This document shows, one piece after another, positions 4,640 to 62,658 of a stretch of DNA of 64,000 nt; the stretch's first letter is position 1; each line of letters opens with the position of its first letter. The stretch is from Pisolithus tinctorius (taxonomy: Eukaryota > Basidiomycota > Agaricomycetes > Boletales > Pisolithaceae). The DNA is taken from positions 180,595 through 244,594 of the forward strand of contig JANFAH010000075.1 of the NCBI GenBank assembly GCA_024663395.1. Direction: 5' to 3'. The notes below the pieces were generated by a model, which did not search any database, was not told the DNA's origin, and saw only the letters and a program-made list of their open reading frames with translations. A program made the position numbers and the translations under genes.

Positions 4640-5525
4640 AACGCAACATTCCAGTATGCTTTCACTCTGCCGGTTTTGGAGCTCCCGCTCTCGCTGTCGA
4701 GAGACTTGTCTCAGTATTGCTTCAGCCACAATAGCGCAACAGAATGTTACATGGCGCAGGCGCATGTTGCGGGCAACTTACATTTGACACTGGACCGAAC
4801 GGGACAAGATTCTGGAATGATACGGATGGAAGCCGTCCGTTGTAACACAGAAAGGGGCTGTTCTGCAATGAGTTCCATGATTGGCGACTGTCATGTGGCC
4901 CTTAAGAATGCAACAAGCCTGTCTCATGTGCACTCAGGGAAGCGGGGAAACTCATTCAATATTTGACAGCTTGCGGGGAAGCTTCCACAATTAGTGCAGC
5001 ATTTTGCATCATTGATCGGCAGCCATCATATACCTTCGTTAGCGTTGTCTTTGGCTTTCACGCGAATGTAGGTATGAGTTTACTTTAACCTCACGGTGGA
5101 TGACCTTGAGGCAATTTCTAAAGGTATGCAGCCCGCGAGGGTCTAGACCAAGTCATGGTTTGTCTGAGGCCAAGCCCAAATCCCAATACTGACGGTGGTA
5201 CCGTTATCATAATTCACCGCAGGGCCGGGTCTCGCGGACGATCAGGAAGGCACTGACGATACATTCACGTACACCGGAGTTCACACGAAGGGCGAGAGGG
5301 GTGTGTGACAGGGGCATGACATGCCCGCCAGGATGTCGCATACGGCATACAATAACAATTGCCAGCTTCCTCGTCCAAGCCTGACCCCCAAATTTGCGAG
5401 ACTCAAGACTCAAGGCTCCAAAACGTTGCCGGTATGGCACCCTAACAAGCGGGGAGCTATTCCATACAAGTCCAAGTTGCTCGATATCTGATCAGCTGAC
5501 TGCAGTAATCGTCACTTGCAGGGCC

Positions 5526-5532
5526 TATAAAA
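5526..5532 (+). promoter_or_regulatory. TATA box of amine oxidase copy 2
   Basis: TATAAAA lies 64 bp before the start codon at 5590, the same spacing as in copy 1. Confidence 0.7.
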
Positions 5533-5589
5533 TGGTCAACGCAGAGAGCAGTACTGCGTGCCAACGCGTACCCTCTTCTCTTCCTTGTT

Positions 5590-10837: not shown

Positions 10838-11622
10838 AACGAAGTGTTTCCTGTTGGTGGGATAGTGGAATCTGATAAGATGGTGGGCAGTGTAATGATG
10901 GCACGGCATCTCCCGATACAGTAGTCAGACTAGTTCAGCCTATGACAATATCCGGAGTTCAAACGGTGTTGGTTGGTGCGCGCTCATACTAGCAATTACA
11001 GTACAAGTGGCGCGGGAGCGGGTGGCCATTTCAACGAGAGTTGATTCCTTGTAAACGGGCGTCCGCACTTCCCAGCGCTGTCGTTAACGAGTAAGATTTC
11101 TCAAGGTTGGTGGAGCTTCTGGGAAAAAACCCGCCCATGTCATTTCCATCAAGACCTACGCGACTTTAGGACGGGTCACGTCAGTCGTTCAGGTTTCCCA
11201 GAGCAGCTGCACTGTTTTTGAGGCCAGGTTCTTGGTGGCACTGCCCAACCACAGCCAATCGACAGATTGAATCGGGTTGTACGGGTGACATGCCATCGCC
11301 TGCCCAAGCCTCAAACATACAGCACTGATCAGCGGCTGTTGAACACCCCGAGGCATTATCGCTGTCCATACGGCGCGCGGAGCCATCTCCCGGCGGCCCT
11401 TATGTAGACTACGATGGCCGGCCATCATGCAATATATTCAGGCTGATCAAGCATTCCGAGTTGATATCATGAGGTACTGCCAGGTATGAATTTGTATGTG
11501 GCGACCCGCACAACACCCGCGATTAGCAGGCGAATAGCCTGGGAGCCAGTTCCGGGACACCTGTTAAACTTCGCGTAATGGTCGCAGTTGAATTAAGTCG
11601 GTTCTACATCGCTTCCAGGACT
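10838..11622. other. Intergenic region between divergent BolA and amine oxidase genes
   Basis: About 0.8 kb with no supported gene. It must hold the promoters of the two divergent genes; only the TATA box at 11623 stands out. Confidence 0.6.
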
Positions 11623-11629
11623 TATAAAA
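11623..11629 (+). promoter_or_regulatory. TATA box of amine oxidase copy 3
   Basis: TATAAAA lies 73 bp before the start codon at 11696, in the same kind of context as copies 1 and 2. Confidence 0.72.
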
Positions 11630-11695
11630 TGGCCAACACAAAAAGAATCCTGCGCGCTGCTCTGTCACAATCTTTTCACTGATCCCTCTCTTCCC

Positions 11696-13723
11696 ATGTC
11701 TCTAATCAGGGTCTCTGTTGGGACCGTGCTGCTCAGCCTCCTGGCTGGCGCGGCCGCTCAAGGTATCACCGCTTCTCAAAGTTTGGCCAACTTCACCCAA
11801 GCCGGTGTTGCCCCGAATAACACCAAGGTGCTCATCCTTGGTGGTGGTATGGCCGGTATCATCGCAGCCCGTACTCTCCATGAGCAAGGCATCGACGACT
11901 TCGTGGTTGTGGACGCCAAAACAGAATTCGGCGGACGCATGATTCAAAAGCCCTTCGGTGTTACGGGTAGACAAATCGTCGTCGAGATGGGTCCGAGCTG
12001 GATTCAGGGAACTCAGGATGGTGATGGAAATGCTAATCCAGTTTGGGAGTTGGCACAGAAACACAATTTGAGTGTGGTGGAGAGCGACCTGTACGGGAGC
12101 GTATGTGCGTTTGTAGTTTACACTACGTCTTTGCGGTCACACTCATCCCGTCGTAGCCTTCTTCGATTACACTGGACCCAGTAACTACTCGGACACCTTC
12201 ACAGCGTCGATAGACGCGTTCACCAACGCTACAGTGGTTGCAGGTACGCCAGGGAATTTCAGTGGCTATTTAATCTTTCTAAGGTTTATGAAATAGGGCA
12301 GCGATTGCACGAGAACAAGGTTGATATGGATCTCCGGTCAGCTTACAGTTACTTGGGCATGGCTCCCACGACCCCACAAGAGGAGGCTTGCCAGTACTAC
12401 CAGGTTGATTTCGTAGGTATCCTTCATATTCGGTAGGAGTGCGGCCTTACCTTGTTTCAGGAATGCAAGTTTTGTTTCCCCCCTTACATTGTCACTTTTA
12501 AACTGATCCGCTCTCTCCGCACCGGAATTTAGATGCGCAGGTAAGACGGGTTTCCTTCACTGCCACTGGACGACGCCATTGACCCATTTTTGTAGTCCCC
12601 TTCACAAACATCGTGGTTGGCCTCTGCATGGGTGAGCACATGTGTAGCGTTTTACGTGGCTGCGATGTCCCTGATTCATTATAGAAACACAATTTCACCT
12701 ACGTTCCTGAGGCCGGAGGTTATTCGGACGTGCACATGATGTCTATCGACCCGCGTGGTATTGCATGGATCGTTCAAGCGGAGGCTGTCGATTTTCTTAA
12801 GACAAACCAGATCCTCTACAACCAGACCGTAACGTCCATCCACTACGACCAGAACGGGGTGACCGTTCTGACAGCAGGCGGATACAACCTTACCGCGGAA
12901 CATGCGCTGGTTACGTTCAGTGTTGGTGTGCTGCAAAACACCGACGTTGTTTTCCAACCTACTCTTCCCGACTGGAAACGAGAGGCTATCAACAGCATAG
13001 AAATGGTAAGAATTGACCTGCTGATCAAATGCCGTATTCCCTAACGCGAAGGCAGGCGGGGTACAACAAGATCTTCCTGCAGTTCAACGACACTTTTTGG
13101 TTCGATACGGAGATGGGACTCTATGCGGACCTGCAACGAGGAAGATTCCCGGTATGGCAAAGCTTAGACCATCCCGACTTCTTCCCTGGTTCGGGAGTCA
13201 TTTCTGTTACTGTGACGGTAAGTGAACGTCGACTGTGCCATAAATTTCCTCTACTCAACGAGGTTTCAGGGTGACCAGTCGCCCTACGTTGAGCAAATGA
13301 ACACCACGCAGCTCCAGAACGAGGTCATGGAGGTTCTTCGCACAATGTACCCCGATGCCCCCGATCCGGTCGATATCCACATCCCTACCTGGGGCACCAA
13401 TGCCCTGTATCGCGGCGCATACTCCAACTGGGGGGCGTCTTTCGTACCTGGACACGTAGAAAACTTGGGGGCCAACGTGGATAATCACCTCTGGTTCGCG
13501 GGTGAGGCTACCAGTCTCAAGTACTTCGGTTAGTCCACGTCTTCTATTTACCTAAGAGCTGCAACTTACTTGATGGGGTTGTATAGGCTTCTTGCAAGGT
13601 GCCTACCTTGAGGGCCAGAGAGTTGGAAAAGAAATTGCTGATTGTATCTACCACGGAAGCTGTTCGGTAGCTCATGAGGCCACGATTACAAACGCCCAGC
13701 CTTACCCAAACAGTTTGCAGTAG
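11696..13723 (+). CDS. Secreted FAD-dependent amine oxidase (polyamine-oxidase type), copy 3, intact
   Basis: Ten exons join without a break to give 512 residues: 11696-12104, 12157-12243, 12297-12412, 12461-12464, 12533-12540, 12596-12631, 12685-13005, 13056-13217, 13270-13528 and 13587-13723. The order of parts is a secretion leader ending AAAQ, the flavin-binding VLILGGGMAGIIAARTL, FGGRM, the segment FVPEAGG-like YVPEAGGYSDVHM, and the C-terminal WFAGEATS plus FGFLQGAYLEG. Members of this family oxidise polyamines and make hydrogen peroxide; the leader points to an extracellular or secretory-pathway enzyme. The substrate cannot be read from sequence. It lies outside the 4.4 kb duplication and is more diverged, so it is probably the oldest or the best-preserved copy. 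Confidence 0.93.
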
Positions 13724-44667: not shown

Positions 44668-46035
44668 ATGTCATGCGATACGCAGGCGACTCAGGTCCAT
44701 GTGGACGAGGACAGTGGCGCGCGCCGCTTGGTGGTCAACTCTCGGGACTTGGATGGCGCTCGTGATGTTTCCTATGAGTTTCTTCGTCGGGAATATTCTT
44801 TTGATCATGTTACAGTTACAGATGTTATAAACCGGCTTTCTGAGAATCCATTAGGTCCCTATCTTACATGCGTTCCTTCGAGCGTGCGCGAATTGGTTGA
44901 ACAGTTTCCCTTTTTTTCGGTGGCTCATCTGAGGGCGATCGCGCAGATTCATGGGGTCTCGCTGCACGGAAGGTTGCAGCGGGGGATGTGTAAAGATGCT
45001 CTACGCTTGCATGATTGTGAAGGATCCTGTCCCTCTGTGTCATATGTATTCCACGTCCTAAAGCGCCCACGGCACAATTATATATTCGTGCCCGACCTGC
45101 ACCGGCCATCCAACTCCTATTCCAATGAGTGTTACATGAAGGCGAAGGAAAACACTAAGAAGCAACGGCAGCGACGAGCGGCAAATGCGCTAGAGGGTCT
45201 GGCTCCGGTGGGCCCTCCTGCCGAACCTCCTCTGGTCTCGCCGTTTCCGCCCGTACAATCGTTTGCAGCAAAGCGCGAGATTATTCGGGAGTGGCAGGTG
45301 GAGATGTCCCCTGATCATTTGCAGGAGGGGGTATGCGCTGTCTGCGTCCAGATATTTGCTGCTGAGTTGCTTGTCGACGTTGTCCCGAGTAAAGAGATGT
45401 TATTGACTCTCAATAATAATTGGTTGCCCGCGGAGACACGGCCTCGTACATATGACATCGCCAAATACGAGGGCGCGATTCTGTGTTGTCATGGCATGTC
45501 CTGCCTTGGCAACATCGGGGACCTTCGTATGTGCCTGTGCTGTCGCAGATCCTTGAGCAGCCCGAAGCCGAGGCAGCCAAAAGATGCGATTGCGAACTTT
45601 CAGTACTATGGCGTTAGTGAGCTACCTGTGGATGTGAAATCTGCGCTGGCATGTGCTAGTCAATTTGAGCTACAGCTGATTGCGCTGGCCCGGGCGACTG
45701 TGATTACCCATCATTATCAAACAAAGGGTGCACGTGGTGGTCGTTTGCCAGAGGAAGCGAGCCAGCGCTTTAATAGAGGAAATGTCGCGATTCTGCCGCA
45801 GGATCCCGGTGCCTTGCGAACGGTACTCCCCCCAACCACTGCTGAGATTGAGGGCGCGATGTGTGTTGTGTTTGCAGGTGGCTCTTATCGGCCAACTTTG
45901 GATGCTTTATGCAAATTTCCTCCGGTGCTTGTGAATAAGAGCAGGGTGCAGTTGTTAATTGAGTGGCTCATTGCTCACAACATGTGGTATAAGGCCAACG
46001 GCGTTACATTTTCGCAGGATATTTTGGAGTCCTTG
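44668..46035 (+). pseudogene. Helitron replication/helicase protein, 5' part
   Basis: An open frame starting MSCDTQATQVHVDEDSG encodes the N-terminal region of a fungal Helitron Rep/helicase. It includes a zinc-binding-type segment (CAVCVQIFAAELLVDVVPSK, then CCHGMSCLGNIGDLRMCLCC) and ends SQDILESL, where the KDZ transposon begins. The frame is uninterrupted up to the insertion. The protein resumes at 62652 in the same frame. Helitrons replicate by a rolling-circle-type mechanism; this copy is inactive because of the insertion and of frame lesions in the 3' part. Confidence 0.85.
46029..46035. repeat. Target site duplication, left copy
   Basis: The heptamer GTCCTTG immediately precedes the left terminal repeat of the KDZ element. 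The same heptamer follows the right end at 62652-62658. Removing the element and one copy joins the Helitron reading frame exactly. Confidence 0.85.
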
Positions 46036-46121
46036 CACATGATTCAGTCACTTGTAGTCCTAAAAGTGGGTCATCCGACATGTACATTTCGTCCTGAAAC
46101 TGGGACTAACCGACATTGGCC
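46036..46121 (+). repeat. Left terminal inverted repeat of the KDZ element
   Basis: It matches the reverse complement of 62567-62651 from the CA at the tip through TTCAGTCAC, AAAGTGGGTCATCCGACATG and GGGACTAACCGACAT to GGCC, with a handful of mismatches and a one-base indel. Confidence 0.88.
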
Positions 46122-46149
46122 GGTGGTCCCTAGGGTTGGGTAGGCTGGA

Positions 46150-47810
46150 CTGTGAAGGTGGGGTCGGCCTATGTCACAGGATGATGGATCAACTTCCCTG
46201 GAAGTGGGGTCAGCTGACATGACTATAGGATGGATTGATGACCTGGAAGTGAGGTCGGCTGATGCAGCTATGGGATGAATTAGTGTCCTGGAAGTGGGGT
46301 CGGCCGACACAGCTATGGGATGAATTAGTGTCCTAGAAGTGGGGTCGGCCGACACAGCTATGAGATAGATTAGTGTCCTAGAAGTGGGGTTGGCTGACAC
46401 AGCTATGAGATAGATTAGTGTCCTAGAAGTGGGGTCAGCCGATGCAGCTATGGGATAGGTTAGTGTCCTGGAAGTGGGGTTGGCCGACACAGCTATGGGA
46501 TGAATTAGTGCCCTAGAAGTGGGGTTGGCCGACACAGCTATGAGATAGATTAGTGTCCTAGAAGTGAGGCCAGCTGACACAGCTATGAGATAGATTAGTG
46601 TCCTAGAAGTGGGGTCGGCCGATGCAGCTATGGGATGAATTAGTGCCCTAAAAGTGGGGTCGGCTGACGTAGCTATGAGATAGATTAGTGTCCTAGAAGT
46701 GGGGTCAGCCGACACAGCTATGAGATAGATTAGTGTCCTAGAAGTGGTGTTGGCCGATGCAGCTATGATATAGATTAGTGTCCTAGAAGTGGGGTCGGCT
46801 GATGCAGCTATGGGATAGGTTAGTGTCCTGGAAGTGGGGTTGGCCGACACAGCTATGGGATGAATTAGTGCCCTAGAAGTGGGGTCGGCCGATGCAGCTA
46901 TGGGATGAATTAGTGCCCTAGAAGTGGGGTCAGCTGATGCAGCTATGGGATGAATTAGTGCCCTAGAAGTGGGGTCGGCCAATGCAGCTATGAGATAGAT
47001 TAGTGTCCTAGAAGTGGGGTCGGCCGATGCAGCTATGGGATAGGTTAGTGTCCTAGAAGTGGGGTCAGCTGACACAGCTATGGGATGAATTAGTGCCCTA
47101 GAAGTGGGGTCGGCCGACACAGCTATGAGATAGATTAGTGTCCTAGAAGTGGGGTCGGCCGATGCAGCTATGGGATAGGTTAGTGTCCTGGAAGTGGGGT
47201 CGGCCGACACAGCTATGGGATGAATTAGTGTCCTAGAAGTGGGGTCGGCCGATGCAGCTATGAGATAGATTAGTGTCCTAGAAGTGGGGTCAGCCGACAC
47301 AGCTATGAGATAGATTAGTGTCCTAGAAGTGGGGTCAGCCGATGCAGCTATGGGATAGGTTAGTGTCCTGGAAGTGGGGTCAGCTGACACAGCTATGGGA
47401 TAGATTAGTGTCCTAGAAGTGGGGTCGGCCGACCCAGCTATGAGATGAATTAGTGACCTAGAAGTGGGGTCAGCCAACACAGCTATGGGATAGATTAGTG
47501 ACCTGGAAGTGGGGTTGGCCAACACAGCTATGGGATGAATTAGTGACCTGGAAGTGGGGTCAGCCAACACAGATGGGATAGATTAGTGACCTGGAAGTGG
47601 GGTTGGCCAACACAGCTATGGGATGAATTAGTGACCTGGAAGTGGTGTCAGCTGACACAGCTATGGGATACGTTAGTGACCTGGAAGTGGGGTTGGCCAA
47701 ACCAGCTATGGGATATATTAGTGACCTGGAAGTGGGGCCAGCTGACATGGCTGGGGGAAGGGATGATGTCCTGGCAGTGGGGTCAGCTGATGTGGCTGGG
47801 GGGAATGAAC
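46150..47810 (+). repeat. Left subterminal array of 45-bp repeats
   Basis: About 36 tandem units of 45 bp. Each contains the core GGAAGTGGGGTCGGCCGAC or a close variant followed by CAGCTATGGGATGAATTAG. The GTCGGCCGAC part is palindromic. The right array uses the same core in the opposite orientation. Because 45 is a multiple of three the array stays open on the minus strand for about 500 codons, which I treat as a by-product. Such arrays near transposon ends usually bind the transposase. Confidence 0.9.
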
Positions 47811-48188
47811 CATGACCTGGAGTTGTGGTTGGGCAGACACTTTGCAAGAAAGACCAATATCTTGCTAGTGGGTTAGTGGGGCTGGCCAATCTTATTACTC
47901 AGTACACTACTTCCTTGGTAGTTAGCTGGCTGAACCCACATGGTTGTGGAAAAATCCTATATCCTATCCTTATCCTGTGGTATTGAAGTTAACTCTACCA
48001 ATCTGGCCATTGTATTGGAATTAACATTGGGCAAATTTACTCAGTTGTGTATCAGTACTTAAGGAGGAATTGTCCTGCAGGAAATTACTTTTTTTTCTGA
48101 ACATTCAATGTCATATGAAATTTGAAAACACAAAGCAGCTATTTTTGATTGTAGTACATGCATATCATATGTATCAAGGTAGGGTATT
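47811..48188. other. Spacer between the left array and the H3-tail gene
   Basis: AT-rich and CpG-poor, with no gene. It should contain the 3' end of the minus-strand H3-tail gene transcript. Confidence 0.5.
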
Positions 48189-49776
48189 TTACAAAGATTC
48201 CAACAGCCAGGATGATGTTTGCCCCTTTCCCTGTGTCAGTTTGGTAGCCCCTTTGGACATGCAGATAGTATAGGTTTGGGGAGGCTGAGATGTGCCTTGT
48301 GTGTCCTTCCCACAGCCAGGATTCTTGCACTCATAGGAATAAGTCTGCCCTGAACAACCAGCTTCCCACTTCTGAATGCTATAACACTGAGGGCACTGGG
48401 CAGGCAATTGTTGTCCCCAAGGCCTGATGAACTTGTCAGTCCAGACAAATTTCTCCACCACTACCTTCTCCTGCCACAACATCAGGATGATGTTGGAGTG
48501 CCTACCCAACATACCACAGTCATTCAGGGCATACCTGACTGCACTTTGGACATGGAAGCCTTGAACAAGGGTGGAGTCAAGGACACTCATGAGGAAGGGA
48601 ATGGTGGTGACTAGTTGAAGTCTCTCAGCATCAAAAAGCAACATGGACCTTGGCTTGAAACTGATATGGTGTCAGCCATAGCCACCAACATTGAAAGAAA
48701 ACCTACTGTTGCACAGCTGCCTTCAGTCCTTGGAAGCTCTGCTCCTTCCTTACAGTAGAACCACATACAAAGAAGATGAGGTCTCCACCCTTGACAATGT
48801 TGGAGAGGGGTAACAGAAGGCCTTGCAGAAACTGCAACTGGTCAGATGGGAGTGACAGTCAAACAATGGTGACTTACCTCAAAGACCTCTGTGGCTATTG
48901 GAACCTTATTCTCCATTCCAGAGAACAGATCCCCCCTGTCTTCATCAGTATGGGTAGTAAGGAAAATGACTACCTTAGCAAAGGTAGTCAGACTTGAAGC
49001 TAGCTTTGATGCTGCAGTGTCATAGGCAGCTCTGGACTCCTCAGTGGCAAAGTTGAAGGACAGTTGTGAGAAGTGGTAGGTGTCTTGTCTGAAATATCCC
49101 TGCAACATGGTGTGAAGGATATGCACAGGGGCATGGCCAAGCTCTAGAGACTCAAGGTGGAGGTGGATAATGGCAGTAGAGTTACCAGCCACTTCAGAGG
49201 TGGTGGCATGCTCAAACCCCCCAATGACCACAAGAGGGTGTTTCAGGACTGGCTTGCCTGACAAGTAGAAGCCCTGTACTTGGAGTTAGAAGTGATTGGG
49301 GTGGCAATATGCACTTACAAAATAGGGCTGAGGACTTTCAAATCTTGTCATTTTCCAATGACAGGCAACACACCTGAAGTTCATCCAGAGTTTGAGTCAA
49401 TGGAATTAATTCATAAAAGGGAGGTTAACACACCTGAAGGTCACAGGAAGCTGGGTGACCTCTGCAAGGCAATCCTCAGGTACTACAACACACTTGTTAC
49501 ACACTACCCTTCTGCATCCTGCCTGATCACAAGGCCACAATGTCCCTCCATCCCTGCACATCACACAGAACTGCATAGAATGTTAGAAAGATGGATGGAA
49601 TATAACAAGAGACTTGCCAAGTTCCTCATCCTTCTCTTCTTGGCAACAGGGGCCTTCCTAGCATGGGCCTTGCTTGACTTGGCAGCATGTTTTTCCCTAG
49701 CTTTCAGACCAGCAAGAGATACCCTGGGAGCTCTACCCCCAGTGGTCTTCTTAGCTGTCTGCTTGGTCTTCACCAT
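48189..49776 (-). CDS. Histone H3-tail look-alike with PHD-like zinc finger, transposon-encoded
   Basis: Six exons join in frame: 49776-49618 (GC-AG intron follows, 49571-49617), 49570-49434, 49373-49319, 49273-48878, an exon near 48800-48690, and a last exon ending at 48189. The product starts MVKTKQTAKKTTGGRAPR, which copies the histone H3 N-tail (A-R-T-K-Q-T-A-R-K-S) with the positions of K4, K9 and K14 kept and followed by a lysine/alanine-rich stretch (HAAKSSKAHARKAPVAKKRR). Then comes a cysteine-rich PHD-like finger: FCVMCRDGG, CDQAGC, CNKC and CVACHW. A globular region (GFYLSGKPVL, VIFLTTHTDEDRGDLF, LIFFVCGSTV) leads to a zinc-ribbon-like end (AQCPQCYSIQKW ... CKNPGCG). The tail could recruit or decoy histone readers or writers. 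No lesion was found, and the coding sequence has almost no CpG. Confidence 0.85.
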
Positions 49777-50129
49777 CTGAGTGTATTATGCCAACATTAG
49801 TGAGTGGCAGCAACATGACACAGAAGGGAACAGTAGCATACCTTATTATCTTTACAAGACACAGAAGGTGTAGGGGACAAGCAGTAAGATAACAATAAAT
49901 GCATTTAGTTTAGTACATATATCATGCAGCAAGGATGGATATCTACATATTTATGGAAAAGACAAGCCAATGTATGCAACTACACAACACTGGGCACTGG
50001 ATAAGCAGACCAAAGAGGGTGATATGTAAGTATCATCTGGACACCATGAAGTAGAAGTCCAACAACATACCTTATTGGATGAGACACAGCAAGGGAGATG
50101 CAGTGTGGCAGGAGGGAGATATGAATTGA

Positions 50130-51200
50130 TAGCCTACTAGTGTGTTTTGTGAGTGGTACAGGGACACCAGGAACTGGGACAACATACCTTTTGTAGGATG
50201 AGACACAGCAAGGGGGTGTTCTGTGAGTGGTAGAGGGATGCCACGACCTGGGACGACATACCTTTTTTTTTTTGATAAGGCACGGCGAGGGGGTGTTCTG
50301 TGAGTTGTAGAGGGACGCCGCGAAGCTGGGACAACACACCTTTTTTTTTGGATGAGCACAGCGAGGGGGTGGTCTGTGGGTGTTTTGTGAGTTGTAGAGG
50401 GACGCTGCGCGAGCTGGGACGACGTACCTTTTTTTTGGATGAGGCACGGCGAGGGGGTGTTCTGTGAGTTGTAGAGGGATGCCGCGAAGCTGGGACGACA
50501 TACCTTTTTTTTTTTGGATGAGCACGGCGAGGGGGTGTTCTGTGAGTGGTAGAGGGACGCTGCGACCTGGGACGACTTACCTTTTGTTTTTTGATAAGGC
50601 ACGGCGAGGGGGTGTTCTGTGGGTGTTTTGTGAGTGGTAGAGGGACGCCACGAGCTGGGACGACGTACCTTTTTTTGGATGAGGCACGGCGAGGAGGTGT
50701 TCTGTGAGTGGTAGAGGGACGCCGTGACCTGGGACGACTTACCTTTTTTTTGGATAAGGCACGGCGAGGGGGTGTTCTGTGAGTTGTAGAGGGATGCCGC
50801 GAAGCTGGGACGACATACCTTTTTTTTTGGATGAGCACGGCGAGGGGGTGTTCTGTGAGTGGTAGAGGGACGCCGCGACCTGGGACGACTTACCTTTTGT
50901 TTTTTTGATAAGGCACGGCGAGGGGGTGTTCTGTGAGTTGTAGAGGGATGCCGCAAAGTTGGGACGACATACCTTTTTTTTGGATAAGCACGGCAAGGGG
51001 GTGTTTTTGTGAGTGGTAGAGGGACGCCGGGAAGTAGGACGACATACCTGTTTTGTGGATGAGACAAGGCGAGAGGGTGTTCTGTGAGTGGTAGAGAGAT
51101 GCCGCGCACTGGGATGACATACCTGTTTTTTGGATGAGACCCGGCAAGAGGAGGGGGGTGTTTTGTGAGTTGTAGAGGGACGCTGCGAGCTACTTACCTT
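50130..51200. repeat. Minisatellite of about 77-bp units with splice-donor-like hexamers
   Basis: About fourteen tandem units. Read on the minus strand each has an exon-like part (AACACCCCCTCGCCGTGC, then an A run) followed by GTATGT, GTAAGT, GTACGT or GTGTGT and about 40 nt ending CTCACAG. The array lies upstream of the H3-tail gene in its transcription direction. Units of different length drift in the A run. Confidence 0.88.
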
Positions 51201-52102
51201 CTTTTTGAATGAATGGGCTTTGTGAGTAGTATGGGACACTGAACAACGCGCAATAGACTGAGAAGAATGGCAGTGTCCTGGTGTGTGATGTGAGTGTTGA
51301 AGCCATGAGAGGTTCGACAACATACCTTTTTTGTTTTTTTTTTGAAGGGAGACACGGCACGACGTACCTATTTTGTGTTTAGAGAGGGAGAGGTGCGAGA
51401 GATCCAGAGGACGACGACGTACCAAAAATTTCGCTGAGACGCAGCAGGGCCAGAGAGTGGGATAACGCAACGACGGTCGGTGAGGGAGACACTGTGTGGC
51501 AAGAGGAGAGGAGCAAAAGACCGTGTCAATCTGGATACTCGGATGCACAGATCTCGATTTTGGACAGGTCACGTAGTGAGACCTATGATAATCTTGGACA
51601 CAACCTTAATTGTGACATGAACAACGTCACGGCTGTCATGATTATCACACGTGTCTACCCGTACTTCGGATGCGTCTCTGGAACATTACGTAGGACTATA
51701 TACGGAGTGGTCCATCGCCGCTAGGCCGATTTCCGGTTTCAATAAGTGACTACATGTATTAAATGATCTGGTAGTGCTACTACAATACATTTTCTGTGAA
51801 ATCCCAAGGGTAAGCCACCACTACCGCTCAGCCAACGGCACGAGGGAGTGCTTGCTCGGCTCGACAATGCAATTACGAGAATGTCAAGCGAACATTTAGT
51901 ATTTAGTATATAGAAGCCGAATCCGGTGACAGTGGAGTCACGTGACATCGCTATTCACGATGTATAGTACGACACGCGGTACTGACTCAGAGGAAGTTGC
52001 CAGCACTCACGGCAACTGAACACGCACTGAGGCCGAGAACGTGACATTGACAGCGACCTCACTAGTTGGACTGTGGCCAAACAACGGTACATAAGACTCA
52101 AG

Positions 52103-52110
52103 TATATAAA
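52103..52110 (+). promoter_or_regulatory. Candidate TATA box for the plus-strand transposon genes
   Basis: TATATAAA followed by a C run and a pyrimidine-rich stretch (about 52150-52250), typical of fungal core promoters. A splice donor (GTAAGT at 52289) lies downstream, so the 5' leader is probably spliced. Confidence 0.5.
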
Positions 52111-52483
52111 TCCCCCCCAGTCAGTGGCATATTTTTTCCCTTACTGCGTTTCTCTGCGATGTGATGCTTCCCCTCCGTCGTCCTCCCTCTCCCTCCATCT
52201 CCATCTCCCTTTCCCCCTCTCTCTTTCCCGTTTTCTGTGCTACGTCATCTTCGTTTTTATCTCAGCCCATCGTCTCGGCTGTCATAAGGTAAGTGGCACC
52301 TCTGATCCCAGAATTTTCACATTACTTGATTACCGTTACTTTGCAGCATCCTTGGCGCCTCACTATTGACTGTAGTCTGCAGCTACAGGATGTAGGGAGG
52401 GGCTACCCTTGACCTTAGATTGTGCTTGGCCAGCGCAATTTTTGGTTGTTGGGTAATATGTTGGGTCTGGGGGAATAGTCTGT

Positions 52484-52585
52484 GCCTACATTGTAGGCCA
52501 GCTCATGGGATCTGGGGGCTAGTCTGTACCTACATTGTAGGTCAGCTTATGACATTTTATTTGGTCTGTACCCACCTGTGTGGGT
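52484..52585 (+). other. Three successive hairpins with covarying stems
   Basis: Stems are GCCTAC-ATT-GTAGGC (52484-52498), ACCTAC-ATT-GTAGGT (52528-52542) and ACCCAC-CTGT-GTGGGT (52570-52585). Paired bases change together between copies (G-C to A-T, and T-A to C-G). The surrounding phrase (GTCTGT ... CAGCYTATGAC) repeats as well. They sit in the leader of the dioxygenase gene. Confidence 0.55.
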
Positions 52586-52589
52586 CAGC

Positions 52590-53642
52590 CTATGACGTTT
52601 TTTTGTGTGGTATGTGTTGGTATATATTGGTAGTAGCTAGTTGGTCAGGCTTTGGTGTAGTGAGTATTCAACTTCTGTATAATCTATGTTGTACTGACAT
52701 AAACTTTCTAGAGCTGTTTATCTTTGACTCCTGGTGAATAAAGAGTGCACCTCAGGTATGTGAACTTTGCAAAGTTCTGTTGATGCTAATGTGTTTTTAG
52801 GATCTTTGTTATCAGCTTTTGTGCGCTTTTTTGGGAACTTGGTTGAATTGAGGACGGTTTTTATTGGCCCAACTGTACTTCTGGAGGAGGGCCCCCTCTG
52901 GAATGCAGGCAAGCCTTGGTTTCTTATGAAACCATTATACCTTTGTAGTTGAAATTGTAACTGTAGTTGAATTTATGTATGACCTTGTAAATGTCACTGC
53001 TTTGATTGGATTTGAATGCTGTGTGGGAATCTATGCTTCTTTTTTTGAATGAAGCATGTGCTAACCCTAACCCTAGCATAAGACTTGGTGTATTTCTTCA
53101 TGCAAGTCTGCTTCTAACCCTAACCTTAGCAAATGACTTGGTGTATTGTTTCATGTCAGTCTGCCTGGCTGGTGGATGGTGCTAGATTAGCACTGGTGTT
53201 CCATGGCTGATCTTCTTAAGCAAGGTTTCCCTTTGATGCTCAAGAGCTTGCCAATGGCATTACTAGCAACCCAACATCTTCCCTTCAAATGCTGTCTGGA
53301 TGTGTTCCTAGCTGTTGGATGTTGCTAGATTGCTAGATTAGTATTGGTGTTCCATGGTTTCCCATGATGCTCAAGAGATTGCTGGACTGGATTGACTTGG
53401 AGTTCAACTGCTGCTGAGTTTGATTGCACCATTCCAGGCCCCTGCTTACATGACTAGATGTTTCAAGAAACATGGTGTATCTAGTAGACTAAGTTGGGTT
53501 TCTGGATTCTGGATCTTCCCCCAAGTCAAGCAAGGTCCCTTGTGGAGAATAACTTCCTACTTATGTACTGAGTGATTTTTAACTATTTTTCTTGCGGTTG
53601 AAAAATTTTCCTTTGACTTTTCCAACACCCCCCACATCATCA
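52590..53642. other. Leader region of the dioxygenase gene, no gene
   Basis: CpG-poor sequence with short direct repeats. It includes two copies of a phrase with CTAACCCTAACCCTAG / CTAACCCTAACCTTAG (53050-53065 and 53114-53129), which look like telomere repeats, and a repeated GTTGGATG...TGCTAGATTAG phrase near 53170 and 53320. Confidence 0.5.
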
Positions 53643-54987
53643 TGGATGATTCCCTGCATACAATGGTGGTTGGAATGCTGAAGGCTGCCTTTGGAACAGT
53701 CCCTATGATCTCTTCCAGCTCTATTTTCTCAAATCACCAGCTCAGGAAGCCAAGGTAAGCCATAAGCAGTGATGCTACACTTGCTATGTATTTAGTTGGA
53801 TAATAGACTTCAATCCTTGGCTGAGTTAACCCAAGTCAGGGCAACATTGCAAGGGGAATCTGGTCTAACTTCAGATGCTATTACATCTTTGGAAGTTAGG
53901 CTGGCATCCGCAGTCATTACACATGCCATCCTCAATCCCTGTAGGTGATTTCCACAACAATTCCAAGTGATCCAAGTCTGACCCTTAATAGATGTGTTGC
54001 ATTGGGATGCAGACAGGTTTTCTGAACCATTGGTGCATGCCAAGGACAGGACCATCCATTTTGAAAACCCAAAAATTGGGTATATCAATGCTCCTGCCAC
54101 AGTTCTGGATGTGCATGGCAGGGTGATAGTATGGTATCTGCCTGGTATTGTCCCAGATGCACGGATAGTGAGTGTTTTCATTCTCTGACAACCCTTCACT
54201 ACAGCTTTTATATCATAGGAACTTCTCAATTCCCTTCTCCTTTCCATAAAAGACAATCTTCAGACTGAGCCCAAGAACAAGCCAAAAGACAAAAGCAAGC
54301 TTAACAAACGATATGGCCATAAGCATCAGCCTGTTGACCAAGTCATGTATGGACATGGCAGGATTTCCATGTCTCCTGCCACATTCCAACAGGCTCATGA
54401 GGTTTGTCCAGGTGCTGTGATTTCCATGGTAGGGGCTGACAAATTTAAAGAGGTTGGTTGATACACTCTATCAAAGCACATCCCTCAAACAGAAAGCCAA
54501 TAGGGAATGGCTGCTCAAGATTTCTTATGTGGAACACTTCTGGAGCAATATAGCAAAGGTCTCATTGCCAGATATGGCCAGGGCTGGTGATCAAGCAATG
54601 TTGGCCAAGGCTGGCAGGGTGGAGAATGAGATATCCCTGGATTGGCCATCGGTCTATACCAACATTGATATTATTGTCAATCAGGAAACTCCCTCTCACC
54701 GAGATGTCACATCCACCCCAACCCTTCTGGATTCATTAGTGAGCCTGGGTTCTCACAATGCTAAATTCCTTATTCCAGATCTGGGGGCCGAACTGGCTTA
54801 TTCCCCAGGCACCATGATTTTCCTATCAGGAAAAATCCTTCAACATTCTGTGCCAAAGTGGGAGAAGGGAGAAAGAATTGCATTGGTGCATTATATGAAG
54901 GACAAAGTACATGACCGACTCAAGGTCACAAGACCAGCATGGACTACCCAAAAGGACATTCTTGGGTTGGCTGTCAGATACACTTAA
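53643..54987 (+). CDS. TET/JBP-like 2-oxoglutarate/Fe(II) dioxygenase, transposon-encoded
   Basis: Exons read MDDSLHTMVVGMLKAAFG (start uncertain), then LTQVRATLQGESGLTSDAI, VLHWDADRFSEPLVHAKDRT, ELLNSLLLSIKDNLQTEPKN, and a long last exon with the catalytic core. There the iron ligands can be seen: His and Asp in SHRDV, the distal His in LQHSV, and the 2-oxoglutarate-binding Arg in GERIALVHY. The order (TNIDIIVNQETPSHRD, LGAELAYSPGTMIFLSGKIL) fits the fungal TET/JBP family, which oxidises 5-methylcytosine. It sits just upstream of the KDZ transposase, the known arrangement in fungal genomes. The enzyme could protect or reactivate the transposon by demethylating it. Splices between early exons are not all certain. 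Confidence 0.82.
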
Positions 54988-55131
54988 AACACATTTTAGT
55001 GGCAATTTTTGGGTACAAATATTTTAAATACATTTGATAACCTTGTTCTGGACTTGTGTGGTGTTGTTTTGGGGATGAAAAATTTTCAATACAGCTGAAA
55101 ACCTTGCTTTTGACTCTTCCTGTGCTCAATC

Positions 55132-58100
55132 ATGTGTCGTCGTAGAACCAAAGTCCTTGGCAAAAGCTCTGCAGGAGGTTTGTATAAATTTGAAGTCACT
55201 AAAACCTGGAGAGGAAAGGACACCTACAAGGAGGTGGATGCTAGACACCTCTACCTCCCATCTCAGAGTCAACCTTCAACTCCAAGGACCCCCAGGACAA
55301 TAGGCTCCCAAAATGTTGTCCCAGACTCCTTTGACATGCCTACCTTGGATTGGAATGATGAGGAAGATACCCCAAATACTAGGAGGGTTACCAAGGTGGG
55401 AAGTTTTGCCTGATACTGCATTGGCTAAATTATCCCCTAGAGTCAAAATGATTTCATCAGAGAATGGCTGCCTTGGAGAGCAGAATATCTCAAAGTCATT
55501 CTCAAGGGAGAGCAGCTGGCTAAGGGGGGGATATGTGAGCAGTGCTGTCAGGCAGAAGGAAGTATCAGATGCATGTCCTGCATTGGTGTGCATGCCTGGT
55601 GTGGTCCTTGTGCTGTGAAAGTGCATCAAAATCTTCCATTCCACAAGGTACAAAGATGGAATGCTACTCATTACCAGGCTACCTCTTTGATGGCACTTGG
55701 GTTCCTTTGGCACATTGGCCATGGGGGTCGTCCTTGCCCTCAAAACAGACAGAATCAGGATCCAGACTCAGAGGAGTTGGGCTATACTTCTGGGGAAGGG
55801 CCTCCCAATTACAGGTCAATGGCAGTCATATCCTGTAGCCTCCATGTTAACCTCTGGTAGCAGGAGATCCTTCAGATCAAAAATGACCATAGTGCACACA
55901 GAAGGAATTTTCACTCATGAGATTTCTTGGTGCAATTGCCCTGGGTCAGATCCAATGGACTGGCACCTTGATTTACTCAGGGAAAGACTCTTTCCAGCCA
56001 GTATAACAAAGCCCAAGACTGCTTTCACCTTTGATGTTCTTAATCACTTTCTCATTGATGCCCTGGAATGCAAGACTTCAGCTATGAGTTTCTATCAGAA
56101 GCTGAAGAGGTTCACCAACAATGCATTTCCTGACTGTATACCAGTTGAGTGCCATGCACTATTTGCTCTTAGGGGGTTCTATTAATGCATTCATTTCCAA
56201 TTAGGACAGGTACCGAGAGCTGATGAGGGTTTCCAGACTGTGGAGGGATTTGAAACATAGGAAATGGTTTGGCTTTGGTCATGATAAAGAACAAGATCCT
56301 AGACAAGGAGAACTTGCACTCTTTTGTCCTGCCTGCCCACAACCAGGTATTAATTTACCTCCAGATTGGAAAACCTGATATGACAGGTATGGAGTGATAA
56401 TCTGTAGGGTTTTGATTTCTAACTCCCCTCCCCCCTTAGTGATACCATAATGAGGCAATATGTCATGGATGGCAACTTCACTGCTCAGCATATGAAAATG
56501 AACAAGCCTGAGTTGGATGTGTCATTATCAGATGGAACTGGTTACATGGTTGCTGAAAAGCCCTACCAGGCCCATCTTGAGCAGTCTTTGGATAACAAGG
56601 AGGTGAGTTGTCCCAAGGTCATGGAGTTTAAATGACCCACTGTACTGGTAGAGATCCACCTGCAGCAATCACAGGGCAATCAATGCTGCTAATATTAACA
56701 AGTCCAATCTCCGGTCCACTGGGATTGGTGCCACAGCCTGTGCTCGGCATGGTTGCTTTGTTCCCCATTCTGTGGTGGACTTTCAGAAAGGGGAAAAGTG
56801 AGTGGACCTGATGGATGTACTGGAAGCCTTTGGAACTCATTTTGTGCTAGGTACATGAACACAGATTACTCCATCTGCAGTGCTCTTGATTATCATTCAG
56901 AAAGCATCACAAAGGCCCTTGTCATTTATGATGTTGGGTGCCAGTGGAGTATTAACTTCCAGAGTCGGGTAAAATCCAGCTGCTCTCTCCATCTCCCTCC
57001 CTCCCTGGAAATCATTCCTGCTGTGGGGAAGTTTCATCTTGCTGCCCACAAACTCTCTTGCTTTCCAAGATATAGCCTCAACTTTATCAAGGGTGCTGGT
57101 CATCTGGATGGTGAAATTTTGGAGACATTGTGGGCTCCATTCAATAAGATCTCTCCCACTGCAAGGTCTATGACTCAGGCCCACAGACAAGAAGTGTATG
57201 ATGACCATATGAGAGATTCTAACTGGAAAAAAATTGTCAACATGGGTGAGAGACCTTTTCTTCAAAGAGAAGTTAATTTACCCTGTACATCTCAGTTCCT
57301 GCACTGTTGAAAAAATACAAGACCTCACACAAGTGCCTAGAAGAAATGAATCAGGCATATGAGCAGTTGACAGCTGTTCTAGACCCTGGCCAACTTGCCC
57401 AATGGGAGTCGGATGTTCTTGAGGCAGAAGCAAATCGAGGTGATTCCCTAGACATTTATTTGTTGAAAGGGGAAAAAGGTCAGTATGTTCCTAAGAAACC
57501 CTGGGCATGTCTGATGGCCTGTAGCCCCTACCATGGGTGAAGTGCAGTTAAAGCTCATGAAAAATCCACCTGTGTCCCCAGGGAGCCATGGTTCTGTGGC
57601 TTGGCTTGTGGAAGGAATTAGCATAGAGGATGCACAGTATGGTCTGTGGTTTCCAGAAGCAATAGGTTGCTAACCAGACCTGCAGGGACCAGCTAAGATC
57701 TGAGCTTAGACAGAGCCACATGTCTACCAGACAAGAAATCAAAGTCTCAGAGAAAAGAAAAAGACTTTCTGCCAGGATTGACAAATTCCATGGCACCAGC
57801 CAGGCATTTCTCAAAGGTTTGGAGGTGGATGATGTCTTCATACCCCAGGATGATCCAGCATTCCTTGGGCAAGGTGAAGAAATTGATGACAATGGAGAGT
57901 ACTGGGAAGATGATGAGGATTGGGAGGCTACAGAAGAAGGAGAGGAGCTACCTGCTGAGCTCATGAGTATATGGATGCCCTCATCCATTGGAGCAACCAA
58001 ACTGATGGAGCTTGGCCTTCATGACCTCCTCAAAGAAGAAATGGAACTCAGGATTGGGCAAGCTAATGATTGTCTAGACCAGCTCCAAACCAACCTTGGA

Positions 58101-58732
58101 CACAAGGCAATGTTATACAGACAGAACTTCCGCAGTGCACAATCAACTAGGGAAGGTACAAGAACCAAGCAGGACATCCAAAAAGTGGTGGCTCGGATAA
58201 ACAAGCAGGTCAGAAGTTATCAGAGGGCAAGGCAGGCCATTCTCCAGTTGGAACCCAATCAAGAGATTGGACAAAGATATCAGGCTATTCAGCCCCAGGA
58301 CCTGGCAGTGAGTAAGGATGTTACAGAGGAGAACCGGTTTGGGCAGGGAACCAGCAAAATGGCATGGTTTTGGATGATGGATGGTGAACAGGGTCAACTG
58401 AATGCTGAGAAGGGGGGTTTAATGGAGGAGTGTAAGTGTTAATACTACTCAAAAAAATCTCACCAATAAATTGTGGGGCAGTTTACAGGATCAACTGGCT
58501 CAAAGCAAGGGCAAGAAGGGACAGGTGGAAAGAAGAATTGTCATTGGTGAGGCATGAGATGGTTTGGGCCATCTTATGGTTTGAGTTCCAGAAGGACATA
58601 TGGGAGAAAAGGGCTCTACAATTGTTGGAACCAGGGAAAAAGGCTTATGCTCATAAGCAGATAGTGTTGTGGACTGACTTTTCCAAAAAGGCCCAATTGA
58701 TGTTCCAAGGTAAACAAATGGATTGTATTTAG
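55132..58732 (+). CDS. KDZ transposase with CxC2 cysteine cluster
   Basis: A multi-exon gene starting MCRRRTKVLGKSSAGG. The CxC2 cluster reads CEQCCQAEGSIRCMSC then WCGPCAVKVHQNLPFHKVQR and HIGHGGRPCP, followed by SWCNCPGSDP and LFPASITKPKTAFTFDVLNH. The nuclease core has the pattern of KDZ enzymes: the first Asp in DGNFTAQHMKM (about 56467), the second in IYDVGCQW (about 56932), and the Glu in GEILETLWAPFN (about 57112-57147). The C-terminal half is helical with coiled-coil character (LDQLQTNLGHKAMLYRQ, ARINKQVRSYQRARQAIL) and ends GKQMDCI. The cysteine clusters probably bind DNA. No clear lesion was seen, but I did not verify every splice. Confidence 0.9.
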
Positions 58733-58965
58733 AACATGGGTATATGTGTATAGTTTTCCGATTACCCTTGCTTTGCACTTGGTATCTGAATCAAAGTGAA
58801 TAGCAAATACATCAAAACAATCATACCATAATGGTACCTTTCCTAAAAGAGTGATGGCCGAAAACTTCAACCTCCTGCCTAAATTGGGAAAGGCTGAAAA
58901 ATTTTCACCTTGCTTCCAACCTCCATCATCTGTGCTGCTAATTATCCCCCTGATTTTATTCTCTC
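58733..58965. other. Short spacer between transposase and HMG-like gene
   Basis: About 230 bp, with no gene, presumably terminator and promoter. Confidence 0.5.
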
Positions 58966-61343
58966 ATGGCTGATTGGTCTGAAGTCTACTCTGATCTGCT
59001 GTCCTCCTATGTGGAGCAGTACACAGATGCCCGAGGGAATCCTGACCTCAGGGCCCAGATCCTGGCTGATGTGAAATCCCAGATCCTTCAGCAAGCATCT
59101 TCAGGATCTGTGGAATTGCCCCAGAACTTGAGAGTGGTAGGGTATCTTTTTCATCAAGTTTCACATATCTCAAGTGTATTTAGGCCATCAGAAGGGTGTT
59201 TTTGCCAGAACTAGACCCTGAAGACCAGGATGATGAGGAACACATCATTGAGAGCATCCTGGCTGCAACAGACAAGAGGAAGGAGCAGCCTGGGACTGGT
59301 GAGGATGAGGATGGCAGAGAGGAGAGGACCAGACCTACCAAGGCTGGAAATTACAGAAAACCCTTCACTGATTTTACTGCCTCCCAGCAGCTCTTCAAAG
59401 AGGACATGGATGCCTATGATAGGGAGAGGAGGGACACCAAGGACCCCAAGACCATAGGTCAGAGGACCAAAATCATCCAACAGTGGTGGGAGTCTCTTGC
59501 AGATGACAAGAAGGCTGAAGCAGGGAGGGCTGCTTCCAAGTGGAATAAGTTGGGAGCTCCAAAAGAAACTCATGAATTGTCAGTGCTGGTCTACTTCAAA
59601 TGTCTTATACTAATCATGCAATAATTCAGGTACAGGAGAAAAAATTTTCCCAACATGGCCAGAGACTTTATTGAAACAGTCAGGAGGACCATGGGGTCAA
59701 ATATAGTGATGTTTCTGGCTCATGAGACTACTGATTCTCAGATCAAGATGGCAGTGTAGGTTCCCCTTTACCTTGTCTATCCAATGCTAATGAAGAAACC
59801 TAGCTTTGAAACACAACCCCCTGATGGGAAGAAGGCCTTCTCAGAGTCTTCAGAGCCCACCAAGGATTGGGTTCTAAAGGGAGAGCAAATGTTAACCAAT
59901 TATCTTTGACTGAAGCTGGTAAGTGATAAACATTGGTGATCAATGTAATATGTGTACCTAGGTTGATTCCATACTCAGCTGAGGAAGATTTGAATGATGA
60001 GAATCCAAAGGTGGAGATAGCCTTGGATGATGAAGGAAACCCAGAGGTACCAGCTTGGACTGGTCAGAAACTCAAGGTCCAGCAGAGTTTGGCAAGAATG
60101 GTCTTCCAGGCTGCCTATGGTATGTTCTTGATTGTCAAGTGCATCTACAGTTGTTGATGGAAGTTGGAAACATAGCAAAGTTTACAGGGAAGCCCAAGGC
60201 CAAGGTTCCCTGGGGCCTGCTTATCAAGTCCCATTTGGAGTATCTGAGTTCCGATTCCATCCCAGAAGGATTCATGATGAAAGATCCTTCAAAATGGACC
60301 AAGGCCGACATGTGGATGCTTTGGAATCATTGGAATTCCCAAGAGGAGGAGGATAAGGTGATTGTTTCATTCATCAAGTGCAAAAAGGAGGATGAGCCAT
60401 TGGGAAGGCCCTGGAACAGGAAAACCCCATCCAAAAAGAGAGAGTGGATGAGCCCTGGGGAGGACAGTGAAGCTGGGGTGGAGGCCAAGCCCTCAGATTT
60501 AGGGGAAGAAATTGGTGGGGCTGGTATGACCCCTATAGCAACTTCATCAGGGGCCCAGGATATCCTTGACTCTGGGAGGGCCCCATCTGAAGATACCCCT
60601 CATGAATCCAGCCCTGCTTGTCATGCCAATGGGGACAGGGTGAAATATTTAAAGTCCCTTTGCATCATGCCCAGGTACCAGGAACTTGTTGAGCTTGTAG
60701 ATGGCTTGCCAGAGACAGTAAGTGATAAACTTTCTTCAAATACCAGGTTAACAAACATTTTGTACAGGAACCTGATGCTGGACCAGTCAACCTGCTTGTC
60801 TGGGCATCTTGGGCCTGGAGTGCCCAGTATTTGCCCCAGGAGATGCATGGCAATGGGGATTCCTTCTGGAAGGCACTGTATCAATTGCAAAGTGAAAAGT
60901 TTGCATCCACCCAAAAAGGTCTTACCATTGTACTGGGATTTGGTTTGTTGTGGAGGGAGTGCAAAAGAGCGCAGGACATAGAATCAGATGACCCTGAAGC
61001 TGCTAATCTGGGCTTTTTGCTAGGCTCAGGTCTTGATATCCACAAGGGGGAAGATGTTATGGGTGCAGTGGGGCTGGTAGTTGCAAGACTGCAGCAGAAT
61101 TCTGGTGGCTCAAGCAGAGGGATTGGTGCACAGGAAACAACTGGGGTCAGTGCAGGGGATTCCTGTCCCACCCAGGGGGGTGGCATGAAGGAATCCCAGA
61201 ATACAAGAAAGGATGTGAGGAAAAGAAAAAGGGGAGGCAGTGGGGATGTTGATCAGAAGATGGCAAAGGAGGGTGAAGAGGCAAGCAAGAAATCAACTAG
61301 AGCTCGTCAACCAACCAAGAGAGCTCTGGGTCTTGGTCTATAA
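58966..61343 (+). CDS. HMG-like basic nuclear protein, transposon-encoded
   Basis: The gene starts MADWSEVYSDLLSSYVEQYT and has about seven exons. A helical acidic N-terminus (DPEDQDDEEHIIESIL) is followed by a region that resembles an HMG box, with the pattern QQWWESLADDKKAEAGRAAS and KWNKLGAPKE, then RRKNFPNMARDFIETVRRTM. Further exons give PWGLLIKSHLEYLSSDSIPE and WTKADMWMLWNHWNSQEEED. The C-terminus is low in complexity with a likely nuclear localisation run (RKDVRKRKRGGSGD) and ends RALGLGL. It follows the transposase in the same direction and is probably a DNA-binding accessory protein. The HMG call is by pattern only. Several splice sites between 59600 and 60150 are uncertain. Confidence 0.6.
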
Positions 61344-61609
61344 ATAAACTGTAGATGGTGTGAATCAAAAGGATCCCTATATATGGCTACCCATGCTCAT
61401 TGCAAGTTTCAAACCCTGTGAGATCACTGACATCACCTGGAGGTGAAGAATGGCCATGGATTCAGGGGGTAAGGCCACCCCCCAGTGAGGTTGGCCAACA
61501 ACTGGTCTCAGGGGTATGTCCATCTGGAAGTGTCATCAGAGTCAATACTTCTGGTAACATCTAAATTGACAAGCAATTGATTATGCCAAGGGAATTTTCA
61601 GGTTTGGCC
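61344..61609. other. Spacer between HMG-like gene and right array
   Basis: No gene found. Confidence 0.5.
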
Positions 61610-62530
61610 AACCCTACTTCCAGGTGGTGAGGTCTGTGTCCATCCCCCAGTGAAATTGGCCAACACCACTTCCAGGGTGTGAGTCCATCCCCCAGTGAGG
61701 TCGGCCGACACCACTTCCAGGGTGTGGGTCCATCGCCCAGTGAGGTCGGCCGACACCACTTCCAGGGTGTGGATCCATCCCCCAGTGAGGTTGGCTGACA
61801 CCCACTTCCAGGGTGTGGGTCCATCGTCCAGTGAGGTCGGCCGACACCACTTCCAGGGTGTGGGTCCATCGTCCAGTGAGGTCCGGCCGACACCACTTCT
61901 AGGGTGTGGGTCCATCCCCCAGTGAGGTCGGCCGACACCACTTCCAGGGTGTGGGTCCATCATCCAGTGAGGTCGGCCGACACCACTTCCAGGGTGTGGG
62001 TCCATCGTCCAGTGAGGTCGGCCGACACCACTTCCAGGGTGTGGATCCATCGTCCAGTGAGGTCGGCCGACACCACTTCCAGGGTGTGGGTCCATCCCCC
62101 AAGTGAGGTCGGCCGACACCACTTCCAGGGTGTGGGTCCATCCCCCAGTGAGGTCGGCCGACACCACTTCCAGGGTGTGGGTCCATCCCCCAGTGAGGTC
62201 GGCTGACACCACTTCCAGGGTGTGGGTCCATCGTCCAGTGAGGTCGGCCAACACCACTTCCAGGGTGTGGGTCCATCCCCCAGTGAGGTCGGCCGACACC
62301 ACTTTCCAGGGTGTGGGTCCATCGTCCAGTGAGGTCGGCCGACACCACTTCCAGGGTGTGGATCCATCGTCCAGTGAGGTCGTCGGCCGACACACTTCCA
62401 GGGTGTGGATCCATTGTCCAGTGAGGTCAGCCAACACCACTTCCAGGGTGTGGGTCCATCGCCCAGTGAGGTCAGCCGACACCACTTCCAGGGTGTGGAT
62501 CCATCCCCCAGTGAGGTCGGCCGACCTCCC
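61610..62530 (-). repeat. Right subterminal array of 45-bp repeats
   Basis: About 20 tandem 45-bp units. On the minus strand each reads GGAAGTGGTGTCGGCCGAC followed by CTCACTGG and GATGGACCCACACC. The core equals that of the left array in inverted orientation, while the other 24 bp are unrelated. The array stays open in several frames on both strands, which is a by-product of the period. Confidence 0.9.
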
Positions 62531-62566
62531 TCCAACATGTCAGCCTATCCACCATCAGGGTCTATA

Positions 62567-62651
62567 GGCCGATGTCGGTTAGTCCCACTTCAGGACCAAA
62601 TGTGCATGTCGGATGACCCACTTTCTGGATTACATGTGACTGAAGGGTCTG
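62567..62651 (-). repeat. Right terminal inverted repeat of the KDZ element
   Basis: Reverse complement of 46036-46121, ending at the CA tip (TG on the plus strand) next to the GTCCTTG duplication. Confidence 0.88.
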
Positions 62652-62658
62652 GTCCTTG
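62652..62658. repeat. Target site duplication, right copy
   Basis: GTCCTTG, identical to 46029-46035. The last three bases form the Leu codon that continues the Helitron frame. Confidence 0.85.

Follow-up and report, generated by a model that had tools for sequence, protein, structure and literature searches.

A TET+ Kyakuja element of Pisolithus tinctorius encodes a protein with a conserved histone H3-like tail, a reader-like finger and a predicted caspase-like fold

A 64,000-nucleotide stretch of the genome of the basidiomycete Pisolithus tinctorius (contig JANFAH010000075.1, positions 180,595 to 244,594; hereafter the window) contains a transposon gene whose predicted product begins with a histone H3-like tail, MVKTKQTAKKTTGGRAPR. 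The gene (49776-48189, minus strand) lies within a 16,616-bp KDZ element of the TET+ Kyakuja type. In this computational analysis its 447-residue product is predicted to join the H3-tail mimic, through a flexible linker, to a PHD/ADD-like finger, a caspase/CHAT-like cysteine-protease domain and a zinc ribbon. The tail is under purifying selection and is better conserved than the other blocks of the protein. Histone mimics are usually short motifs carried by proteins of viruses or hosts; this transposon protein instead has, as its best-conserved part, 17-20 residues of H3 tail, accompanied by a reader-like finger and a protease fold, with a TET enzyme encoded nearby. We know of no earlier H3-tail-headed protease, and a search of the open-licence PMC literature did not find an H3 tail, a reader-like finger and a caspase-like fold in one protein.

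A sequence-only reading of this DNA had already pointed to the tail and the finger. It did not mention the caspase-like domain or that the finger resembles H3K4me0 readers, and these two features put self-recognition and proteolysis first among the readings to consider. The best explanation is that the protein is an accessory of the TET/JBP Kyakuja and that its tail is the ligand of its own finger, a latch that would aim the protease; this is advanced tentatively, as an explanation somewhat short of probable. The protein may help the transposon to resist silencing. The wider proposal, of a naturally occurring protease that self-mimicry of a histone directs to chromatin and through which the element fights silencing on chromatin proteins as well as on DNA (by TET) and so represents a new anti-silencing class, is possible but on balance doubtful.

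The gene, its H3-like tail and the protein family

The gene is read from six exons, all open as first reported and without an internal stop, separated by five introns of 45-60 bases. Codons 1-18 (49723..49776) encode the mimic, and the remainder of exon 1 (49618..49722) a basic, poorly conserved linker, usually of ~27 residues or more in the family. After intron 1 (49571..49617), which has a GC-AG border, exon 2 (49434..49570) encodes the finger, with C55, C58, C67, C72, C77 and C80, and exon 3 (49319..49373) the final finger cysteines, C100 and C103, and the start of the next segment. The caspase-like domain begins in exon 4 (48878..49273), which holds the codon of an invariant histidine, His225 (48950-48952), continues in exon 5 (48707..48831) with an invariant Cys272 (48763-48765), and ends in exon 6 (48189..48660), which also encodes the C-terminal zinc ribbon, C380 to C407 (codons between 48395 and 48312), and the stop. 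The cysteine-rich finger (C55-C103) and zinc-ribbon-like end noticed earlier are both present. In unspliced sequence, an in-frame TAA lies four codons 5' of the Met. An intron in the position matching intron 1 is visible by eye in L068, a diverged lineage. Just upstream of the gene, a 75-bp tandem repeat of ~13 units (50142-51188) is open on the minus strand, and several public P. orientalis gene models seem to read repeats of this type as an N-terminal extension.

In a single BLASTP comparison, the window protein aligned with H3 from Met1, with 15 identities in 22 positions (E 2e-8). Over the 17 tail positions there are 12 identities to H3; the best of 3,520 shuffled family sequences reached 8/17, and a tail was called at 9/17 or more. 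BLASTP, shuffling and the block conservation described below rule out chance or artefact as the source of the tail. The lysines reported at the K4 and K9 positions are there, while the one reported at K14 proves to be Arg; R2 and R8 are replaced by Lys, and A1 by Val.

Three protein searches returned 177 proteins, of which 176 were counted after removal of one true insect H3. Named sources are Pisolithus, Suillus, Rhizopogon, Leucogyrophana and Mycena, and the annotations read hypothetical, uncharacterized or unnamed, apart from the automatic label 'phage FluMu protein Com' on P0158. No precomputed Pfam domain is attached to any of the 176, and searches of Pfam and NCBIfam gave no family for the tail protein; a gene family without a Pfam model therefore sits in Pisolithus, Suillus and Mycena genomes. 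The tail is present in 139 of the 176 proteins, as 88 distinct 17-mers. Constant retention, which the sequence-only reading had set as an expectation, holds for most homologues rather than all: among 98 in which the finger motif is preceded by 25 residues or more, 86 keep the tail (at least 9/17) and 12 models do not. Two of the twelve, P0082 and P0086, have their start placed at an internal Met, inside what is still recognisable as a tail, and there may be real losses among the remainder.

Within the 139 tails, K4, K9 and G12 are the best-kept residues (136 each), with T6 (126), A15 (125), T3 (123), P16 (119) and R17 (117) also kept; R8 (51, with Lys in 81), S10 (52) and K14 (37, with Arg in 21) are less so. 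Position 18 is Val or Ile in 125 tails, although H3 has K18, and L20 is kept in 125, so that constraint extends past the H3 resemblance. Met directly precedes the tail in 127 of the proteins, and some gene models extend upstream. The residue after the Met is small in 133, which by the usual rule would make the Met removable. The tails of Mycena vitilis and M. polygramma carry an insertion between ARTK and KSTGGKAPR, as though each half were recognised on its own.

This pattern bears on the idea that the tail is merely a nuclear import signal copied from H3, which is very improbable. Residues 1-28 of H3 are described as an importin cargo signal (PMC5677370), and the linker of the family is basic; yet the same source has Kap123 binding K14 and K23, and the family seldom has Lys at position 14, has Leu at position 23 in 75 of the 139 tails, and keeps K4, K9 and G12 instead. 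Import as the sole role is disfavoured on these grounds.

Mean block identities between genera are 58-60% for the tail, 35-42% for the finger, 22-27% for the caspase-like domain and 13-15% for the linker. They were taken from 30 of the 38 rows of one alignment (A3; 8 Pisolithus-type, 15 Suillus and 7 Mycena), the omitted rows being P0006, P0010, P0177, the two Suillus models whose start falls within the tail (P0082, P0086) and three Mycena proteins with the insertion in the tail (P0169, P0171, P0172). Five mimic lineages coexist in this genome. L070 and L074 have 13 of 17 residues in common, 12 of these with different codons, and pN/pS over residues 2-18 among lineages is 0.18-0.41, with synonymous sites saturated or nearly so; L070 and L072 are almost identical (one nonsynonymous and no synonymous difference) and as a pair uninformative. 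Purifying selection on the tail argues that its resemblance to H3 is functional. In a tree of the protease part, Mycena and Boletales rows split at 100/100, and Pisolithus and Suillus form clades within the Boletales rows; placement of L054, L049 and Leucogyrophana, on long branches, is unsure. The diverged mimic lineages in the genome, other than that of the window, are L049, L054 and L068-L074; in L054 the K4 position is occupied by Arg, and L068 and L069 are without a start codon.

The tail is old and no fresh copy of host H3. Recent capture was rejected, as 7-9 of the 12-14 residues that four lineages have in common with host H3 use different codons. Exon 1 of host H3 encodes exactly MARTKQTARKTTGGKAPRKQ, about the span of the mimic, and is followed by an intron, and two stray exon-1 fragments lie elsewhere in the genome, at L050 (C2:4630013) and L051 (C2:4721873), with no finger or protease of the tail family found downstream of either. 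Since exon 1 roughly equals the mimic in extent and also occurs loose in the genome, capture of H3 exon 1 by an element is plausible and the natural guess for the origin of the tail. The same exon and fragments would suit a captured exon without function, an explanation rendered scarcely credible by purifying selection, near-saturated synonymous sites and retention across genera. By eye, L050 keeps H3-intron-1-like sequence. Host H3 exon 1 (L052, L053; C41, C47) reads MARTKQTARKTTGG, with Thr at position 10 where Ser is usual.

The element and its copies

Comparison of independent insertions places the element at 46036..62651, with termini CACATGATTCAGTCAC...GTGACTGAAGGGTCTG and the target-site duplication GTCCTTG at left (46029..46035) and right (62652..62658). 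On the plus strand, divergent to the tail gene, it carries a TET/JBP dioxygenase exon (54433..54984, Tet_JBP match 54616-54900) and open frames with the CxC2 cysteine cluster of KDZ transposase (55691..56182) and the KDZ transposase core (56699..57307), which bears out the earlier description of a KDZ element that also encodes a TET/JBP-like enzyme. TET+ Kyakuja elements are characterised by 7-bp duplications and CA..TG ends (Kojima 2025, PMC12730594), and the window element, which has both together with a KDZ transposase and a TET/JBP gene, fits this group. It differs from two Laccaria TET+ Kyakuja families, described as having none, in its inverted repeats of ~180 bp near the ends (79% alike). 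The main text of Kojima 2025 describes no histone-tail accessory gene and does not name Pisolithus or Suillus (PMC12730594). Target duplications of 7 bp are perfect in five of six copies (window, C2, C19, C36 and C20) and absent from that on C17. Because the C12 copy and the window agree at 99.7% throughout 19.7 kb, flanking DNA as well as element, the two are one insertion, present in C12 on a contig that is duplicated or from the second haplotype.

Across the 92.5-Mb genome, a 60-residue tail query gave 59 matches, merged to 57 places that include two host H3 genes (C41, C47), the two H3 fragments (L050, L051) and older lineages. Pairing was scored where TET lay within 30 kb and KDZ within 35 kb, both of the element's own family and in divergent orientation, using 41 of 53 TET rows and 40 of 150 KDZ rows; those omitted are second pieces or distant relatives. 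TET and KDZ accompany the tail at 38 of the 57 places, TET only at one and neither at 18; in the window's own subfamily, 37 of 44 places have both. The supposition that homologues always lie inside KDZ elements is therefore too strong, and the assignment of the tail gene as an accessory gene of a TET+ KDZ element is supported.

The full gene was read in the best-scoring 31 of the 44 subfamily copies, and 25 are without a stop, gap or exon insertion, a figure biased by the choice of best-scoring copies. Twenty-six of the 31, counting the window's, have no more than 5 differences from the window in 1,344 bases: the element has spread recently. The remaining 13 copies were read at exon 1 only; seven have a full-length tail exon, and in six (L062-L067) that exon is altered by a deletion, a change of frame or a stop. 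Since the set may include second-haplotype copies, not all insertions are independent.

The finger, the predicted protease and possible roles of the tail

The finger is of C8 type: ligand 5 is Cys in all eight aligned sequences, where the canonical C4HC3 PHD finger has His, in agreement with the ADD match in a PDB profile search. The best match in that search was 3a1b (residues 2-103, E 7e-10), and the finger also matched SP140 (E 4.5e-6). In a Pfam scan of 38 members, in which 14 families matched any member at E<=0.1, PHD matches were weak and found in eight (best 9.6e-4); the window protein alone matched only DUF7168 (E 0.045). The family thus has the C8 PHD finger of an ADD domain, while the GATA-like C4 finger of ADD is not present, the window protein having no cysteine before C55. 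By sequence, the finger resembles H3K4me0 readers.

Several known systems share parts of this architecture. The structure 3a1b, an engineered fusion of the H3.1 tail to the DNMT3A ADD, likewise places an H3 tail N-terminal to a C8-type PHD/ADD finger, but is man-made, has an extra ADD segment before the finger and lacks a protease, whereas the tail family, a natural one, has a linker and a caspase-like domain. PAF15 is a host protein without a finger or protease of its own. Its H3 mimic is N-terminal and free, starts with Val, as the window's would once the Met was removed, and is read by the PHD finger of UHRF1; the H3-like part, as described, is short (PMC8034647). The Paramecium PiggyMac and Tetrahymena Tpb2 proteins offer a further likeness, in that transposase-linked cysteine-rich zinc domains bind the H3 N-terminus; these read H3, and the account given in PMC8086355 describes no H3 tail or protease of their own.

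Residues ~146-355 form a caspase/CHAT-like domain in predicted models, with a caspase fold in which His and then Cys follow successive core strands. This predicted fold and the His/Cys order resemble SAVED-CHAT 8tl0 and caspases, and the domain differs from CHAT/caspase proteases in having no recognisable sequence family. Against viral protein structures, the top match was a Megaviridae caspase-domain protein (E 4e-4), the rest being uninformative. Fungal CHAT proteins, as described in PMC12881547, carry NLR, WD40, TPR or ANK parts, not an H3 tail and PHD finger.

With an H3 tail and an H3-reading type of finger in one chain, self-recognition is the simplest reading. The tail would bind the finger of the same chain or that of a partner protomer, as a latch that opens when nucleosomal H3 displaces it or when K4 of the mimic is methylated. 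Aimed at chromatin, the protease might then attack silencing machinery or histone tails in the vicinity of the element, and the TET enzyme encoded beside it would oxidise DNA methylation.

Several points weigh against this account. The acidic residue that AIRE uses for K4, two positions ahead of the first finger cysteine, is not conserved in the eight aligned fingers, and the AlphaFold models give no sign of ARTK seated in the finger. Tail residues 1-7 have low confidence in both models, H3 positions ~10-18 being better (block means ~74), and the kept G12, A15, P16, R17, V18 and L20 are unexplained by a latch on residues 1-6. For the protease, the best caspase match in Foldseek (E 5e-4) is weak alone, unrelated proteins outrank the first caspase in one search, and no CHAT, Peptidase_C14 or other caspase family of Pfam appears in the 38 members at E<=0.1. 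To these are added the twelve tail-less models, the rows omitted from the block identities and the pairing count, the biased count of intact copies and the six copies altered at exon 1. Low model confidence at residues 1-7, taken with the constraint from G12 to L20, leads to two rivals.

In one of these, which is unlikely, host H3K4/H3K9 factors (candidates are SET1, a DIM-5/SUV39-type enzyme, HP1 and UHRF1-like readers) would read or write an exposed tail, and the protease would cut the recruited silencing protein, or the tail titrate it. K4 and K9 being, with G12, the best-kept residues agrees with such a bait, as does the presence in the element of a TET enzyme, presumably directed against DNA methylation, and the UHRF1 PHD finger reads the N-terminal VRTK of PAF15 (PMC8034647). 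The frequent Lys at position 8 and the scarcity of Ser10 speak against it: DIM-5 activity is reported as abolished by R8A and greatly reduced by S10A (PMC3248561), data for R8A where the mimic most often has R8K, and SUV39H1 is stated to require R8 (PMC8303541). With R8 and S10 often absent, the tail looks a poor classical K9 substrate that could still bind.

The other rival, which we consider improbable, makes the second half of the tail a pseudosubstrate, an autoinhibitory strand in the cleft of a zymogen-like protease that would clip H3 tails after a basic residue such as R17. It draws on the higher confidence of both models at H3 positions ~10-18 than in the first half, on strand-type residues predicted at position 17 in one model and 16-17 in the other, on the retention of V18, beyond the H3 resemblance, and of L20, and on the Mycena insertion that parts the two halves; Arg at position 17 is short of invariant.

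If either the latch or the bait were true, transposons would attack heterochromatin proteins directly, which would offer a testable reason for the high copy number of such elements. The tail variants would be a natural laboratory for which H3 residues matter in recognition, and transposons would have joined an H3 tail to a reader-type finger as crystallographers later did by design.

Other features of the element and window

Subterminal 45-bp tandem repeats lie at the left end of the element (46197..47737, ~34 units) and at the right (61631..62525, ~20 units), and may be binding sites for an element protein. By eye, the two arrays have a common GGAAGTGG..TCGGCCGACA-like core in inverted orientation. 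Downstream of the transposase, long open frames at 59184-61340 (plus strand) gave no Pfam match at E<=0.1. Outside the element, three similar genes on the plus strand (921-2798, 5509-7423 and 11597-13041) form a local family that appears by eye to be FAD-dependent amine oxidase-like (KVLILGGGMAGVIAARTLHEQG).
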